Positions 698-6,228 of a DNA stretch of 6,228 nucleotides are shown here, in pieces. Position 1 is the first letter of the stretch; every line of letters starts with the position of its first letter. This DNA is from Candidatus Omnitrophota bacterium (GTDB taxonomy: Bacteria > Omnitrophota > Gorgyraeia > Gygaellales > Profunditerraquicolaceae). The DNA lies in the NCBI GenBank assembly GCA_020061545.1, contig JAGUYA010000150.1:1-6228 (forward strand), read 5' to 3'. The notes beneath the pieces are model-generated. The model saw only the letters and a program-made list of their open reading frames with translations, made no database searches and was not told the origin of the DNA. Both the position numbers and the translations under genes were made by a program.

Positions 698-1321
698 GTG
701 AATATCCCGGTGGTTTATGAGGATGAATGGTTATTGGTGCTGAATAAGCCCCCGGGATTATTGACTATACCCACACCTAAAAAAGAATCACGTACATTGA
801 CTAGTATTCTCAATGAAGATTTAAAAGAGAAGGGTTTATCTTACCGTCTCTATCCCTGTCACCGTCTGGATAGAGAGACCTCAGGTTTAATCATCTATGC
901 CAAGGGTAAGTCTATGCAGAGAAAGATGATGGAGATCTTTGGGCAGAAGAAAATCAAAAAGACCTACCTTGCCTTTGTGCAGGGTTTGCTCTCTAATAGC
1001 GAAGGAGAAATAAGAAATCCCCTTGAAGGTAAAATCGCTATTACCAAATATAGAGTTATGGAAAAAAGAAAGGGTTTTAGCATTGTAGAAATTATGCCTT
1101 TAACCGGAAGAACCAATCAAATCCGGATACACTTTAAGCAAATGGGGCACCCTTTATTGGGTGATACAAAATTTGCCTTTCGTCGTGATTTCAAACTTAA
1201 GGCAAAGCGTTTGTGTTTACACGCTAAAAAATTAGAATTTATCCACCCCTTAACCAAAAAAGTAATACCTTTGATTGCACCATTACCTCTTGATATGGAG
1301 GATTTTTTAAGAAAACATTAA
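698..1321 (+). CDS. RluA-family RNA pseudouridine synthase
   Basis: This 207-residue protein should convert one or more uridines in rRNA or tRNA to pseudouridine in the cytoplasm. The family signature HRLDRETSGL is at residues 55-64, with catalytic aspartate D58. Other family marks are the N-terminal VVYEDEWLLVLNKPPG (5-20), KTYLAFVQG (88-96), the KxxxTxYRV stretch (112-120) and LTGRTNQIRIH (135-145), followed by HPLLGD (151-156). There is no N-terminal S4 RNA-binding domain, so it is a short, catalytic-domain-only form, as in RluA/RluC-type single-domain members. The target uridine cannot be told from sequence. The start is GTG at 698, with a good ribosome binding site and a stop just upstream in frame. 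The gene opens a tight five-gene run; its TAA overlaps the ATG of the next gene by one base. A paired leader may control its translation. Confidence 0.93.
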   Translation: MNIPVVYEDEWLLVLNKPPGLLTIPTPKKESRTLTSILNEDLKEKGLSYRLYPCHRLDRETSGLIIYAKGKSMQRKMMEIFGQKKIKKTYLAFVQGLLSNSEGEIRNPLEGKIAITKYRVMEKRKGFSIVEIMPLTGRTNQIRIHFKQMGHPLLGDTKFAFRRDFKLKAKRLCLHAKKLEFIHPLTKKVIPLIAPLPLDMEDFLRKH

Positions 1322-2646
1322 TGAGATTTAACTCCGAAAAAACAAAGAATTTCTTTTTAATCTTATCCTGGGCCTTATATGACCTGGCTAATCAATTCTT
1401 TGCCTTGAATGTGGTATCGCTTTATTTTGTGCGCTGGCTGACTTTAGAAAGGCAAGCTCCCGAAATCCTCTATAGCGTCGCTTTTGGTATCTCCACATTT
1501 TTTGTCGCCATTTCTGCACCTGTTTTGGGCGCCATCTCTGATATAAGCACACGACGTAGACCGTTCTTAATATACCTTACTTTACTCTCTATTATCTTTA
1601 CTATGGTTTTGGGCATATCTAAAAATATATTTTTAGGATTATTATTTTTTATGATAGCAAATTATGGGTGTCAGACAGCTATAGTTTTTTATAACGCCCT
1701 GATGGTCAATATTACGCCTTCCAAGAGAGTAGGTTTGGTTTCTGGTTTTGGGAAAATGATGGGTTATACCGGCGCTGTTTTAGCATTATATCTTATTAAG
1801 CCTATCGTTTTAAAAAGCGGTTATCAGGCTACTTTTTTGCCTACCGGTCTTTTATTTCTTATCTTTTCTTTGCCGTGTCTGATTTTTATCAAGGATAAAC
1901 CGCCCTTAAAAAAATTAGAGTTCTTTTCTTTTTTAAAAAAGGATAGAGTGCTGGGATTTTTTAAAACATTAAGGACAACTCTTTTTGATACTTATAATTT
2001 TCCCGGTTTATCGGATTTTTTAAAATCCGCATTCTTTGGTTTATGTGCGGTTAATACGGTAATTCTTTTTATGTCAGTATATGCTACCCGAGCCTTTGGT
2101 TTGAATGAGGCGGAAGTAATTAATCTGATTACTTTCTCAACCCTTTTTGCTTTAGCAGGTAGTTTATTTTCGGGTTTTATCAGCGATTATCTTGGCCATA
2201 AGCGTGCTCTGGTAGCAGTATTTATTCTCTGGGGAGTCTGTTTTTGGCTGGGAACATCTATCAGAAATGCGCATTTATATTGGTTCATCGGCGCACTCTT
2301 AGGGATAGCCTTGGGTTCAACCTGGGTGGTTTCGCGCGCCATGGCTGTAAGTATTGTACCTGCTGAAAAAATAGGTGGGGTATTCGGGTTATTTAATCTC
2401 GTTGGCTATCTTTCTGCTATCGTAGGTGCCCTTTTCTGGGGAGTTATGCTTTTATTTTTTTCCCGTTTTGGAGAATGGGGATATCGCATCACGCTTTTGA
2501 GTTTAATTTTGTTTATTCTCTTAGGTTTTATTTTTCTTTTACGTATCCCTGAGGTATCAGTAAACCCCGTTAGAAAGGACGCGGGTGCCGTTACAAAGAG
2601 GTTTTCTAACGGGGTAAAGAATAAGAAAGAGGATATGGCAAAATAA
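1321..2646 (+). CDS. MFS transporter, UMF1 (Atg22-like) type
   Basis: This 441-residue inner-membrane protein is almost entirely hydrophobic, with about 12 likely membrane segments. The N-terminal SWALYDLANQFF (16-27) is typical of the UMF1/Atg22 branch of the major facilitator superfamily. GAISDISTRRRPFL (70-83) and GFISDYLGHKRAL (285-297) are the two copies of the cytoplasmic 2-3 loop motif, marking the two six-helix halves. The substrate is not known. The following gene, an acyl ligase-ACP-acyltransferase, suggests a lipid-related cargo by analogy with LplT-Aas, though this protein looks more like UMF1 than LplT. The ATG overlaps the previous stop (TAATG); a GGAGG at 1297-1301 lies 19 nt upstream, so start choice probably depends on coupling. 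The last helix ends near residue 408. Residues 415-432 are encoded by an inserted-looking palindrome and form an unusual charged tail. Confidence 0.88.
   Translation: MRFNSEKTKNFFLILSWALYDLANQFFALNVVSLYFVRWLTLERQAPEILYSVAFGISTFFVAISAPVLGAISDISTRRRPFLIYLTLLSIIFTMVLGISKNIFLGLLFFMIANYGCQTAIVFYNALMVNITPSKRVGLVSGFGKMMGYTGAVLALYLIKPIVLKSGYQATFLPTGLLFLIFSLPCLIFIKDKPPLKKLEFFSFLKKDRVLGFFKTLRTTLFDTYNFPGLSDFLKSAFFGLCAVNTVILFMSVYATRAFGLNEAEVINLITFSTLFALAGSLFSGFISDYLGHKRALVAVFILWGVCFWLGTSIRNAHLYWFIGALLGIALGSTWVVSRAMAVSIVPAEKIGGVFGLFNLVGYLSAIVGALFWGVMLLFFSRFGEWGYRITLLSLILFILLGFIFLLRIPEVSVNPVRKDAGAVTKRFSNGVKNKKEDMAK
2564..2615 (+). repeat. Perfect 13-bp inverted repeat unit inside the transporter gene's 3' end
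   Basis: ACCCCGTTAGAAA (2564-2576) is the exact reverse complement of TTTCTAACGGGGT (2603-2615), with 26 nt between. The unit lies in frame and encodes residues 415-432 of the transporter (NPVRKDAG...FSNGV), beyond the last membrane helix. TAA occurs on both sides (2561-2563 and 2615-2617) and could be a 3-bp target duplication. Removing one TAA plus 2564-2614 (54 bp) leaves the frame intact and the same stop codon. The ends match those of the 622-699 unit. It looks like a small mobile or dispersed palindromic repeat; copy number elsewhere cannot be seen here. Confidence 0.75.
2628..2633 (+). promoter_or_regulatory. Ribosome binding site for the ligase-ACP-acyltransferase gene
   Basis: AGAGGA lies 13 nt before ATG 2647, longer than usual spacing. 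A nearer in-frame ATG at 2635 is followed after two codons by TAA 2644-2646, so it cannot start the gene. Ribosomes ending the transporter at 2646 arrive directly on ATG 2647, so re-initiation probably supplies most starts. Confidence 0.5.
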
Positions 2647-5310
2647 ATGGCAGAAAATCTGGTTATCCCAGAATTATTTAGTCAGGCGGTTTCTGAATTT
2701 CCTGATAAAGTAGCCTTACAGATTAAAAGAGATAACCAGTGGCAGAGGCTTACTTATAAGGATTTAGAGGAACGCTCTCTAAAGTTAGCCACCTTTTTAA
2801 TTAAAGAAGGTTTTAAAAAAGGCGATACCGCCAGCCTCATCTTAGAAAACCGTCCGGAATGGGCAATAATTTATCTGGGTATCATTCAAGCAGGACTGGC
2901 TTGTGTCCCTTTAGACCCGCAACTTAATCAGCAAGAAATAAAAAATCTAATTATTGACAGTGCAGCCAAGATTGCGTTTTGTTCTTATGGAATTTTTATT
3001 AAGAAAATTAAACCGGCTCTAAAGGATACCTCCATAAAAATTGTGGTTCTGGATATGCCTGTTTCAGAGCACGAGAACGTGGTTGATATTTCTATCCTGA
3101 AAGATATTCGCGAAGACAGAAATCTTCTGCCCCAGATTTTACCACAGGATATTGCCTCGCTGATTTATACCTCAGGCACAACTGCTGAACCCAAGGGTGT
3201 CTTATTAAGTCATGCCAATATCTGCTCTAATTTTCAAAGCATAGCAGAACTGGGTATCTGTTCTCCTGCGGATAATACCATCTCCATCCTACCTTTGTTC
3301 CACACTTATGCCTTTATGGTTACTTTAATTACCCCCCTTTTCTTAAGAGCAACAGTTACTTATGCTTTGAGTTTTAAATCCCAGGAGATAAATCAGATTC
3401 TAGAAGAGGCAAATATTACTGTCTTGGTAGGCGTGCCGCAGCTCTTCTCGATGTTGCATAAGGCAATATTCGAGCGGGTGAAGAAAATTCCTTTTCTCTT
3501 TTTTCCTTTGGCATTATTGTTTACGCGAATCAAGGTGCGGCGTAAGTGGCCTAATTTAAGATTACTGGTTAGCGGCGGAGCCAGGCTTGAACCAAAAGTG
3601 GGGAGGGATTTATCTAAAATATTAGGAATTAAGCTAATCGAAGGTTATGGTCTCACCGAGACTTCGCCTGTAGTGACTTTGAATCCGCCGCAAAAAATAA
3701 AATGGGGTTCGGTAGGTAAGCCCATACCCGATGTCCAGATAAAAATTTTCTCTCCTGATAGAGAGGGTATAGGCCAGGTTCTCATTACGGGACCGAATGT
3801 GATGCAGGGATATTTTAAACATCCGGAGTGGACGCAAGAGGTGATAAAGGAAAGGTGGTTTTATTCGGGAGACTTAGGTTATATAGATTCCGAAGGTTAC
3901 CTTTTTCTTGTGGGCAGGGAAAAGGAAGTGATTGTCTTAAGTTCAGGTAAAAATATTTATCCTGAAGAATTAGAAGGGCATTATAGCAAGAGTCCTTATA
4001 TAAAAGAAATTTGTATTTTGGCTAGACAGGAAAAAAAATTTGGCCGGCCGATAGAGTCACTCCACGCTATAATCGTGCCAAATTTAGAATATTTTCAGCA
4101 AAGAAACGAGACAAATATTCGCGGAAAGATTCGCTGGGAACTGGAGAATTTGGGTAAGAACCTGCCTCCTTATAAACACATTATGGGCTTTACGATTACC
4201 AAAGAAGAACTCCCTCGCACGGCCTTAAAGAAGATAAAAAGGTATCAAGTCAGAGAAGAATATTTAAAGGAAAGAGTAAGATATGATATTAAAGAGACCG
4301 GTTTTTCTGAAGAGGACCTAAAGATTTTAAGTAAAGATGTTGCCAAAAAGATAATTCATTATCTTCACAATCAACTTAAAAAACCCGTATATTTGGATAG
4401 TCATTTAGAGATAGATTTAGGAATTGATTCTTTGAGCAGGGTAGAGTTGGGTTTAGGCCTCCAGGAGCTATTATCAGTAAATATTCCAGATAACGTTCTT
4501 TACACTGTATCAACAGTAAAAGATGTGATAATGAAGATATCAGAGATAATTGAGAAGGCAAAGCAACCAGAAATTTATGAAACTAAAGTAACGCGAGAAG
4601 ACACTTGGAGTCAGATTCTAAGAGAACCACCAAAAGAAGAGATTCTTAAAAAGATTAGAATAGAAGTACGTCTTTTGGATTTGCTATTTACCTGGCTATT
4701 TAAGAATTTATTTTCATTTATTTTTAGAATATGCTGGCTTCTGAAGACAAGGGGAAAGGAGCACCTGCCCAAAAAAGGTCCTTTTATAATTTGCCCAAAC
4801 CATGCCAGTTATTTGGATGGATTTATAGTTTTTTGTGGTCTTCCTTTAAAATTAGCGCTAAATTCCTACTTTTTAGGTTACAGTGCTATCTTTGAACATC
4901 CTTTGATTAGATGGGCAATAAAATTAGCCCGGCTAATTCCTATAGACCCAAATGTACACCTGACAGATGCTATGCAAGCAGTATCTGCTGTCATTTCCCA
5001 GAAAAAGATAGTCTGTATATTTCCTGAAGGACACCGTTCTATAGATGAAAGCACAAGAGAGTTTAAAAAAGGCGTGGGCATCTTAATTAAGGAGTTAGAT
5101 ATTCCGGTTGTTCCTGTATATATTAAAGGTTCACATCAATCCTGGCCAAGAACCAGCCGTCTACCCCGTTTCTATCCTTTAAAAATTATTTTTGGTCGTC
5201 CATTTCTGGCAAAAAAATTATTAGAAAAAAGAAAAGACGAATCTACGCTGGACGATTACGAAATTATTGCCAGAAGGTTAAGAGAAGAGGTGGTGAAACT
5301 TGCATGCTAA
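2647..5310 (+). CDS. Three-domain acyl ligase (AMP-forming)-ACP-PlsC acyltransferase
   Basis: This is one 887-residue chain with three domains. Residues 1-540 are an adenylate-forming acyl-CoA/acyl-ACP synthetase: nucleotide loop YTSGTTAEPKG (174-184), GYGLTETSP (333-341), YSGDLG (406-411), GREKEVIVLSSGKNIYPEE (423-441), and K529 in LPRTALKKIKR as the likely catalytic lysine. About 555-640 is a carrier-protein domain with DSL at 594-596; S595 should carry phosphopantetheine. About 680-887 is a PlsC-type acyltransferase: NHASYLD (718-724, the HX4D motif H719/D724), FPEGHRS (792-798) and IPVVPVYIKG (819-828), preceded by a hydrophobic membrane-contacting stretch (677-699). The inferred role is to activate a free fatty acid with ATP, load it on the tethered carrier, and transfer it to a lysophospholipid or glycerophosphate. 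All key residues are present. It resembles E. coli Aas, but with domain order reversed and an added carrier. It abuts the transporter gene with no gap. Confidence 0.92.
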   Translation: MAENLVIPELFSQAVSEFPDKVALQIKRDNQWQRLTYKDLEERSLKLATFLIKEGFKKGDTASLILENRPEWAIIYLGIIQAGLACVPLDPQLNQQEIKNLIIDSAAKIAFCSYGIFIKKIKPALKDTSIKIVVLDMPVSEHENVVDISILKDIREDRNLLPQILPQDIASLIYTSGTTAEPKGVLLSHANICSNFQSIAELGICSPADNTISILPLFHTYAFMVTLITPLFLRATVTYALSFKSQEINQILEEANITVLVGVPQLFSMLHKAIFERVKKIPFLFFPLALLFTRIKVRRKWPNLRLLVSGGARLEPKVGRDLSKILGIKLIEGYGLTETSPVVTLNPPQKIKWGSVGKPIPDVQIKIFSPDREGIGQVLITGPNVMQGYFKHPEWTQEVIKERWFYSGDLGYIDSEGYLFLVGREKEVIVLSSGKNIYPEELEGHYSKSPYIKEICILARQEKKFGRPIESLHAIIVPNLEYFQQRNETNIRGKIRWELENLGKNLPPYKHIMGFTITKEELPRTALKKIKRYQVREEYLKERVRYDIKETGFSEEDLKILSKDVAKKIIHYLHNQLKKPVYLDSHLEIDLGIDSLSRVELGLGLQELLSVNIPDNVLYTVSTVKDVIMKISEIIEKAKQPEIYETKVTREDTWSQILREPPKEEILKKIRIEVRLLDLLFTWLFKNLFSFIFRICWLLKTRGKEHLPKKGPFIICPNHASYLDGFIVFCGLPLKLALNSYFLGYSAIFEHPLIRWAIKLARLIPIDPNVHLTDAMQAVSAVISQKKIVCIFPEGHRSIDESTREFKKGVGILIKELDIPVVPVYIKGSHQSWPRTSRLPRFYPLKIIFGRPFLAKKLLEKRKDESTLDDYEIIARRLREEVVKLAC
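5287..5293 (+). promoter_or_regulatory. Strong ribosome binding site for uppP inside the upstream gene
   Basis: GAGGTGG lies 10 nt before ATG 5304, within the last codons of the acyltransferase gene. It is one of the best Shine-Dalgarno matches in the window and supports the start that overlaps the upstream stop by 7 nt. Confidence 0.65.
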
Positions 5311-6044
5311 AATATATAATATTAGGCATAGTTCAAGGTTTAACGGAATTTCTACCGGTAAGTAGTTCAGGTCATCTGGTCATCCTGCAAAAAGTCCTGG
5401 GTGTCGTTGAACAAGGAATAGCGGTATCTATAGTTCTACATTTAGGCACAAGTTTTGCTTTGCTTGTTTTTTTCTTTAAGGATATATTAAATTTATTGCG
5501 CAATTTTAGAATATTATCGTATATAATAATTGTGACATTGGTTACAGGAATTATCGATATATCAGGAAAAGATTTCTTTGAAAGATTATTCAATTCGCCA
5601 AGACTGGTTGCTATGGCATTAATTGTCACAGGTATAATTCTAATTTTTACCAGGAAATTTACGCATACAAAAAGAACAGCCTTAAATATAAAAGATGCCT
5701 TTCTCTTAGGTCTTACGCAAGGTTTGGCGATTATCCCCGGCATTTCCCGCTCTGGCATTACTATCTCTACGCTCTTGTTTAGAGGGATGGATAGGCAAAC
5801 TTCTTTTCGCTTTGCCTTTATAGCTTCGATACCAGCAGTTTTCGGCGCCGCAATATTAGAGGCAAAGGATATTAGTCTTGCCTTTATGGACTTTACGCCG
5901 CTTATCATTGGCTTTATATTTAGCCTATTAACGGGAATTTTATCGCTTAAGGTATTAAAAATAATCTTAGATAAAGCCAAATTATACTCTTTCGGGTATT
6001 ACTGTATAATTATTGCTGTAATTACGTTATTATTTGTCAAATGA
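5304..6044 (+). CDS. uppP: Undecaprenyl-diphosphatase (UppP/BacA family)
   Basis: This 246-residue, multi-pass inner-membrane enzyme removes a phosphate from undecaprenyl diphosphate, recycling the lipid carrier used for peptidoglycan and other surface polymers; overproduction of the family gives bacitracin resistance. Both family signatures are intact: QGLTEFLPVSSSGHL (11-25) and QGLAIIPGISRSGITIS (139-155). E15, H24 and R149 match the catalytic residues of E. coli BacA (E21, H30, R174). Most of the rest is hydrophobic, enough for about seven or eight membrane segments. It is a little shorter than the E. coli enzyme (273 residues), the difference being short loops rather than a lost motif. 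The start has a strong ribosome binding site; the first 7 nt overlap the acyltransferase gene, and the TGA overlaps the next ATG (ATGA). Its place beside a lipid acylation gene fits a membrane-lipid operon. Confidence 0.96.
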   Translation: MLKYIILGIVQGLTEFLPVSSSGHLVILQKVLGVVEQGIAVSIVLHLGTSFALLVFFFKDILNLLRNFRILSYIIIVTLVTGIIDISGKDFFERLFNSPRLVAMALIVTGIILIFTRKFTHTKRTALNIKDAFLLGLTQGLAIIPGISRSGITISTLLFRGMDRQTSFRFAFIASIPAVFGAAILEAKDISLAFMDFTPLIIGFIFSLLTGILSLKVLKIILDKAKLYSFGYYCIIIAVITLLFVK

Positions 6045-6228
6045 GTATCATTGTCTTAGGAACAGTAGCCTTGGATACGGTAAAGACACCTTTCGGAAGA
6101 AGAAGACATATGTTAGGCGGTTCAGCTGCGCATTTTGCCATGGTCGCGCGCCTCTTTACCAATGTGAATCTGATAGCCATCATCGGAGAGGATTTTCCTT
6201 TTAAATATATTGATTTCTTGCATAAAAA
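6041..6228 (+). CDS. PfkB-family (ribokinase-like) kinase, 3' end missing
   Basis: Sixty-two codons are visible before the window ends, with the frame still open. The start MSIIVLGTVALDTV (1-14) is the usual first strand and GxxxxD turn of PfkB-family sugar and nucleoside kinases. LGGSAAHFAMVARLF (25-39) is the conserved glycine pair that contacts the substrate, followed by NVNLIAIIGEDFP (41-53), the next strand with the family's G-x-D. The catalytic GAGD region and the ATP site lie beyond the window, so activity and substrate cannot be judged. The family phosphorylates sugars, sugar phosphates or nucleosides with ATP. The ATG overlaps the uppP TGA by 4 nt and I see no good ribosome binding site before it, so translation probably depends on coupling to uppP. 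Confidence 0.82.
   Translation, partial: MSIIVLGTVALDTVKTPFGRRRHMLGGSAAHFAMVARLFTNVNLIAIIGEDFPFKYIDFLHK

Follow-up and report, generated by a model that had tools for sequence, protein, structure and literature searches.

The stretch of DNA examined here, referred to as the window, is the entire 6.2-kb contig JAGUYA010000150.1 (6,228 nucleotides; G000:C51) of a Candidatus Omnitrophota bacterium (GCA_020061545.1), the genome of which spans 868 kb and is 76% complete. Open reading frame (ORF) calling placed 4 genes in a row on the + strand, with successive gaps of -1, 0, and -7 bases. The 2 genes in the middle, which may together import and re-acylate lysolipids, are the main subject of this study. 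The first of them (1321..2646, + strand) encodes a UMF1/ATG22-type transporter of the major facilitator superfamily (MFS) of 441 amino acids, and the second (2647..5310, + strand) encodes a protein of 887 amino acids in which an AMP-forming ligase, an acyl carrier protein (ACP) and a PlsC-type acyltransferase are joined in a single chain. A preliminary description, made from the DNA letters alone, had stated that the transporter gene abuts a ligase-ACP-PlsC gene with all key residues present, and this was borne out by the 0-base gap, the Pfam matches, and an alignment of 54 rows.

The MFS protein matched PF07690 with 107.6 bits and the ATG22 family PF11700 with 70.9 bits, well above the curated cut-off of 24.1, which places it in the UMF1/ATG22 family as defined by Pfam, a definition that is separate from the TC class UMF1. 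The structure model of the protein (pLDDT 88.2) showed a predicted MFS fold. The catalogue entry P0121 represents the same protein with an N-terminus that is 30 residues shorter; the start of the full-length form agrees with those of the relatives and completes the first helix in the model. The LplT model was absent from the NCBIfam matches of the transporter, and a comparison of its profile with E. coli LplT aligned a 19-residue MFS loop without significance, the profile being of low diversity and compared with a single sequence. Likewise, E. coli LplT gave no match when used as a query against the window's genome. The idea that the transporter is a diverged LplT is thus unsupported by the NCBIfam scan and the profile comparison, in agreement with the initial assignment to the UMF1 type rather than the LplT type. 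A profile search against solved structures gave weak matches over parts of the length, and since E. coli LplT itself had no match among the solved chains, the absence of LplT from the fold lists carries no information.

The fusion protein matched PF00501 (274.8 bits), AMP-binding_C_3 (25.9 bits), PP-binding (PF00550; 27.5 bits with a cut-off of 20.8), and Acyltransferase (PF01553; 90.8 bits), and its structure model had a pLDDT of 83.1. The ligase part covers approximately residues 1 to 545 (2647..4281), the carrier part residues 546 to 650 (4282..4596), and the acyltransferase part, which was also placed in a tree of PlsC domains, residues 681 to 887 (4687..5307), all on the + strand. Residue conservation was assessed in the 54 aligned rows, which include the window and relatives from Methylomirabilota at 40% to 42% identity. 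Invariant residues in the ligase were the P-loop YTSGTT at 174 to 179, D409, R424, and K529, which we take to be the C-terminal catalytic Lys of the family, so that the PF00501 match, the P-loop, and this Lys together identify an AMP-forming ligase. The PF00550 match and the invariant S595, flanked by the equally invariant D594 and L596, predict an acyl carrier with a phosphopantetheine arm. In the PlsC part, which contains both the HX4D motif (H719/D724) and the FPEG motif (within FPEGHRS), H719, F792, and R797 were invariant, and N718, D724, P793, E794, and G795 were conserved in at least 90% of the rows. The reversed domain order and the covalently tethered carrier proposed in the preliminary description are therefore both present.

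To place the pair in the context of the phylum, both proteins were searched in 285 Omnitrophota genomes, the fusion and MFS loci were fetched, and ORFs were called. Counting as a fusion any ORF with the ligase part plus the PlsC or the ACP part gave 82 ORFs in 78 genomes; matches were listed to about E 1e-68 with at most 3 candidates scored per genome, and fusions may be missed. The PlsC part was seen in 78 of the 82; among the exceptions, an in-frame stop lies in the matches behind L132 and L143, the contig of L149 ends within the ORF, and L162 was found on re-check to be an N-acyltransferase-ligase-ACP protein. Contig-edge fragments in G133, G161, G218, and G228 lie outside the 82, as do 12 fusion-bearing loci of L164 to L179, 9 of which are in the tree described below. 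A called ORF was present on both sides of 69 of the 81 fetched fusion ORFs.

The MFS gene was located immediately upstream of the fusion gene in 14 genomes, including that of the window, for the 82 fusion ORFs, an adjacency count that had been put forward as a check on the pair. These genomes represent 7 families (f1, f2, f7, f16, f36, f38, and f39), and the notion that the pair is restricted to the window's genome was rejected. In 2 of the 14 (L012 and L149), the contig stops within one of the partners, and in a further locus (L117) the MFS gene was found 2 genes downstream of the fusion. The gaps between the genes were mostly -11 to +9 bases, with 81 and 90 bases in 2 loci, while 3 larger overlaps (-29, -97, and -115) reflect long start choices of the ORF caller. 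In a protein catalogue, 19 of the 54 MFS homologs on contigs of at least 4.3 kb among the matches listed (up to 120 for each protein) shared the exact size of their longest contig with a listed fusion homolog, compared to a mean of 0.56 expected after jitter. Furthermore, the 42 genomes in which the MFS matched strongly contained a confirmed fusion in 24 cases, and the 243 others in 54 (Fisher P 9e-6, uncorrected for kinship).

A phylogeny of the fusion was inferred from 89 sequences, after removal of L165 to L167 (duplicates of L066, L069, and L065), the fragment L120, ORFs without the PlsC part, and ORFs shorter than 450 amino acids. The 15 MFS-linked tips were distributed over several deep branches of a single group of 51 tips with a support of 0.94. 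The distances of the MFS and fusion proteins in the 14 pairs were correlated (Mantel r 0.69, reached in 6 of 5000 permutations), as common descent of the genomes would also produce.

The closest known system is that of E. coli, in which LplT flips lysophospholipids inward and Aas, with which it interacts, loads its bound ACP and re-acylates them, according to PMC11416262 and PMC13170283. As judged from domain content, the window resembles this system in that an MFS gene adjoins a gene joining an AMP-forming synthetase with a PlsC-type acyltransferase. However, the transporter is of the UMF1/ATG22 type, the order of ligase first and PlsC last is the opposite of that in Aas, where the acyltransferase precedes the synthetase, and the ACP is built into the chain, whereas Aas binds the cellular ACP non-covalently. 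A further likeness to Aas was observed in motif II of the PlsC domain. Among 87 domains (2 of the 89 tree sequences were dropped), the Lys of this motif was absent in 84 and present in 3, and the position was occupied by Tyr, Phe, or His in all 15 MFS-linked fusions, with Tyr in E. coli Aas; aligned standalone PlsC-like domains had Lys or Arg in 15 of 21 cases.

We also identified an LplT domain in ORFs of at least 1087 amino acids in 25 of the 285 Omnitrophota genomes, and in none of the 61 genomes from the order of the window. Five such ORFs that were examined encode LplT followed by the PlsC and AMP parts; these single chains (L244 to L248) are 1137 to 1158 amino acids long. They tie 3 functions together, as do the LplT-PlsC-AMP chains known from NCBIfam (NF006386/PRK08633 and NF005291/PRK06814), and differ from the window pair in having the LplT transporter and the domain order of Aas. 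In the PlsC-domain tree, the 5 proteins and E. coli Aas formed a group with a support of 0.76 that was distinct from the fusion family. Both designs thus coexist within one phylum, which, with the absence of the single chains from the 61 genomes of the window's order, supports the earlier suggestion of an independent assembly. Omnitrophota are not mentioned in connection with the LplT-PlsC-AMP single chains in the available parts of PMC11416262 and PMC13170283. By title or abstract start, we found no description of the MFS-fusion pairing in a literature search from which subscription papers were mostly absent, and the link of the window transporter to lipid acylation sets it apart from the UMF1/ATG22 literature surveyed in the same manner, which reports no such link for the family in bacteria.

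The lipid background was studied in the genomes that contain the pair. Genes for LpxC and PgsA were found in all 13 pair-type genomes, and lipid A and phosphatidylglycerol (PG) are therefore likely to be made. Ten genomes, including G122, in which the MFS and fusion genes are unlinked, were tested for Lnt and PlsY, and each of the two was found in 8; neither was found in the incomplete genome of the window. Separate PlsC-like genes were present in 11 of 11 genomes checked, and together with PlsY they indicate that the fusion is unnecessary for the bulk production of phosphatidic acid.

In many relatives, the fusion is accompanied by genes other than that for the transporter. An alpha/beta hydrolase of the PF12146 type was encoded within 3 genes of 17 of the 82 fusions, 4 of which also had the MFS gene, and N-acyltransferases were encoded within 3 genes of 22, while 32 fusions had none of 4 partner kinds within this distance. 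The choice of hydrolase, exosort_acyl, and FeeM proteins as queries followed from the presence of such genes beside some of the loci, and these loci count by construction. In L067, the hydrolase occupies the position of the transporter directly upstream of a fusion that is about 60% identical to that of the window. The hydrolase in L095 was most similar among solved structures to the alpha/beta-hydrolase domains of RTX proteins (E 7e-11) and weakly similar to monoglyceride lipases (E about 6e-5), and many of the hydrolases, although not all, begin with a hydrophobic stretch that resembles a membrane anchor. In the fusion tree, 16 of the 18 hydrolase-labelled tips fell inside the MFS group. The other 2, L147 and L150, belong to an outlying clade in which the hydrolase is encoded 2 genes away, and the L147 fusion also adjoins a hexapeptide transferase and a CDP-alcohol phosphatidyltransferase. 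The functions also occur as separate genes, in the order ligase-PlsC-MFS in L103 and hydrolase-MFS-ligase in L100, shortly before the end of the contig, and in both cases the MFS is the same as in the pairs. In L103, a scan for the DSL motif around the separate ligase and PlsC genes found no ACP gene.

The fusions located near N-acyltransferases formed a separate clade of 25 tips with a support of 1.0, sister to the fusions described above. One neighbor, in L128, matched exosort_acyl (TIGR03694) with 188 bits at a cut-off of 112, and another, in L112, matched FeeM (PF21926). This clade is thereby similar to the OlsB/OlsA and FeeM or exosortase-associated clusters, and its gene content suggests a role in the synthesis of aminolipids or N-acyl amino acids. 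The locus L128:2274-8701 and its relatives encode exosortase-associated N-acyltransferases, as a tandem of 2 in several loci, together with a TPR protein, and loci of this type also carry an unannotated protein of about 280 to 295 amino acids. In L112:1803-5771, the fusion is accompanied by a PilZ gene and by a gene for an N-acyl amino acid synthase of the FeeM type. By contrast with these clusters, G234 was the one genome in which searches with exosort_acyl, FeeM, and OlsB-like queries placed an N-acyltransferase within 3 genes of an MFS- or hydrolase-linked fusion, and Pfam found none in the window, which thus lacks the adjacency of OlsB and OlsA. A chain of 908 amino acids in the family of the window (L162:3255-5981, G243:C11) begins with a PF13444 N-acyltransferase domain, continues with a related AMP ligase and ACP, and has no PlsC; it could, from its domains, be a self-contained synthase of N-acyl amino acids, that is, of lyso-aminolipids. 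On another contig of the window's genome (G000:C92, L003), an OlsB-like PF13444 match at 1879-2193 is followed by a PlsC match at 2740-3105, and the organism therefore likely makes an ornithine-type aminolipid; the same arrangement was observed in G162:C44 and G233:C10.

We propose, with a probability of roughly 45%, that the pair imports and re-acylates lysolipids, presumably lyso-PG or another lysolipid not derived from phosphatidylethanolamine (PE), and so serves a function like that of LplT-Aas with different parts. The MFS protein would bring the one-tailed lysolipid into the cell, the ligase would adenylate a free fatty acid and load it onto the phosphopantetheine arm at Ser595 of its own ACP, and the PlsC domain would transfer the ACP-held chain to the lysolipid and restore the missing fatty acid. 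Both the cellular ACP and CoA would then be dispensable for acyl transfer by the fusion, and in many relatives the alpha/beta hydrolase would be the source of either the lysolipid or the free fatty acid. This proposal is supported by the adjacency of the 2 genes in 7 families and by the split-gene loci L100 and L103, as well as by LpxC, PgsA, and Lnt, which point to an outer membrane, PG, and a likely source of lysolipids, perhaps the N-acylation of lipoproteins. The simplest common denominator of all loci would be that the fusion is a self-charging acyl-transfer unit, the acceptor of which is determined by its partner. A broader and more tentative proposal, which we regard as possible although somewhat doubtful, is that the pair represents a second, independently assembled recycling machine, made of a UMF1/ATG22 flippase and a self-charging reacylase independent of cellular ACP and CoA, in outer-membrane bacteria that apparently lack PE, and that the same enzyme serves elsewhere in the phylum with hydrolases or N-acyltransferases as exchangeable partners.

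Several observations weigh against the import and repair of lysolipids. Some of them concern the acceptor: phosphatidylserine (PS) decarboxylase was found in only 1 of the 13 pair-type genomes and PldA in none, and since the decarboxylase was not seen in the other 12, lyso-PE, one of the 2-acyl lysophospholipids handled by LplT-Aas, is a doubtful acceptor and the repaired lipid, unlike that in E. coli, is probably not PE, which favors lyso-PG or another lysolipid, although PE may be made by another route. Moreover, the Arg of motif III was retained in 87 of 87 PlsC domains, including the window type; the residue at this position is Ile in E. coli Aas and Leu in the 5 LplT-Aas-type proteins. 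The motif evidence is mixed, since PMC8319176 associates the Lys with the acyl intermediate, and the Arg with the phosphate of lysophosphatidic acid (LPA); the retained Arg makes LPA a possible acceptor as judged from the motif, and the idea that these residues prove a lysophospholipid acceptor was set aside. Fold searches with the transporter were unspecific and returned generic MFS chains, a mixture of lipid carriers (Spns2, Spns1 with LPC, and MFSD2A) with sugar, monocarboxylate, and drug carriers that does not discriminate between substrates, for which reason the assignment of a substrate from structure was set aside.

The distribution of the genes adds to these objections. The adjacent pair was present in only 6 of the 51 sampled genomes of the window's own family, a patchy occurrence, and among the 42 genomes in which the MFS matched strongly, 18 had no confirmed fusion, although 2 of the 18 (G161 and G228) showed partial matches that are perhaps cut fusions. 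Lone MFS genes adjoin unrelated genes, such as those for deformylase or radical SAM proteins. A homolog with 61% identity is encoded in a single-contig genome (G249:C1:395150-396373) that has a single stand-alone PlsC-like gene but lacks a confirmed fusion. The module is also not composed of 2 parts everywhere, since a hydrolase is often added to the transporter or replaces it. Genome G204 holds both the pair and an LplT-Aas-type ORF; the hypothesis of a complementary distribution of the 2 systems was dropped for this reason and because the numbers are small. Downstream of the pair in G234 (L071:10158-16111) lie a PCMT gene, then, 2 genes away, an OlsB-like gene (PF13444), and finally a PlsC gene truncated where the contig ends. 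This is the sole case seen of a pair near aminolipid genes, and the arrangement would fit the synthesis of an aminolipid. The initial view that the pair does the same job as LplT-Aas therefore stands with respect to the conserved linkage and less so with respect to the acceptor, and the view of a two-part module holds for the pairs in 7 families but not for the loci with hydrolases, the N-acyltransferase clade, or the genomes in which the MFS lacks a confirmed fusion.

The retained Arg would suit a fusion that turns scavenged free fatty acids into phosphatidic acid or another glycerolipid, with the PlsC domain acylating LPA and the transporter importing fatty acids or being unrelated, and the separation of the MFS and fusion genes in many genomes is in line with this explanation. 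We consider it unlikely, given the separate PlsC-like genes and PlsY, the missing motif-II Lys in nearly all family domains as compared to the standalone ones, and a linkage across 7 families that would be left unexplained if the transporter were unrelated. Comparably improbable is that the pair finishes a special lipid, whereby a lyso-aminolipid or lyso-glycolipid of the cell's own making would receive its second chain from the fusion, in the manner of the OlsB/OlsA chemistry (PMC11631085), and the MFS protein would flip the product outward. The sister clade near N-acyltransferases, the arrangement in G234, and the fusion of a ligase and an ACP to a PF13444 domain in G243 speak for such a role. 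Against it, G234 stands alone among the MFS- and hydrolase-linked fusions in the searches with the exosort_acyl, FeeM, and OlsB-like proteins, 8 of the 13 pair-type genomes had no PF13444 match, and the OlsB-like genes of G000, G162, and G233 have their own PlsC-like gene nearby, distant from the pair.

The least probable explanation is that the transporter is a shared operon passenger for an unrelated solute, with the fusion alone carrying out acyl transfer. The MFS genes without a confirmed fusion would then be expected, and the titles and abstract starts surveyed mention no lipid as a substrate of UMF1/ATG22 in bacteria, but a passenger would hardly account for a gene order kept over 7 families or for the separate-gene versions with the same MFS.

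The remaining genes of the window flank the pair. The upstream gene (698..1321, + strand; Pfam and ORF calling) encodes an RluA-family pseudouridine synthase, which is found in the same position in the close relatives L064, L065, L068, L164, and L171 and is probably not part of the proposed mechanism. The downstream gene (5304..6044, + strand; Pfam and NCBIfam) overlaps the fusion gene and encodes a UppP/BacA-like phosphatase that also follows the fusion in L064, L065, L066, and L120. A functional part for UppP was set aside, since its position 3' of the fusion is limited to close relatives, and the phosphatase is not needed for the proposed mechanism. A partial ORF for a PD-(D/E)XK nuclease is located at the left edge (1-621), and the start of an ORF without a Pfam match at the right edge (6041-6228). 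Elsewhere in the phylum, a paralog of 484 to 491 amino acids (L072:13928-15403, L073:5660-7114, and L080:11815-13269) consists of the C-terminal part of the ligase, the ACP, and PlsC. It has no AMP-binding N-domain, and its ACP would therefore need to be loaded in trans. The paralog adjoins a glycosyltransferase, which is fused to a hydrolase in L072, where a GtrA-domain protein was also identified next to it (tested in L072).

If the lysolipid proposal is true, a transporter-plus-reacylase answer to lysolipid damage would have arisen two or more times, with transporters of different families, and the UMF1/ATG22 proteins would gain a class of lipid substrates, the first lipid role of the family in bacteria. 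A single polypeptide would then charge its own carrier and use it to repair membranes, a property of use for lipid engineering. Whatever the acceptor, the fusion family, with 82 ORFs and 3 kinds of partners, represents one acyl-loading module that has been re-used with swapped partners.

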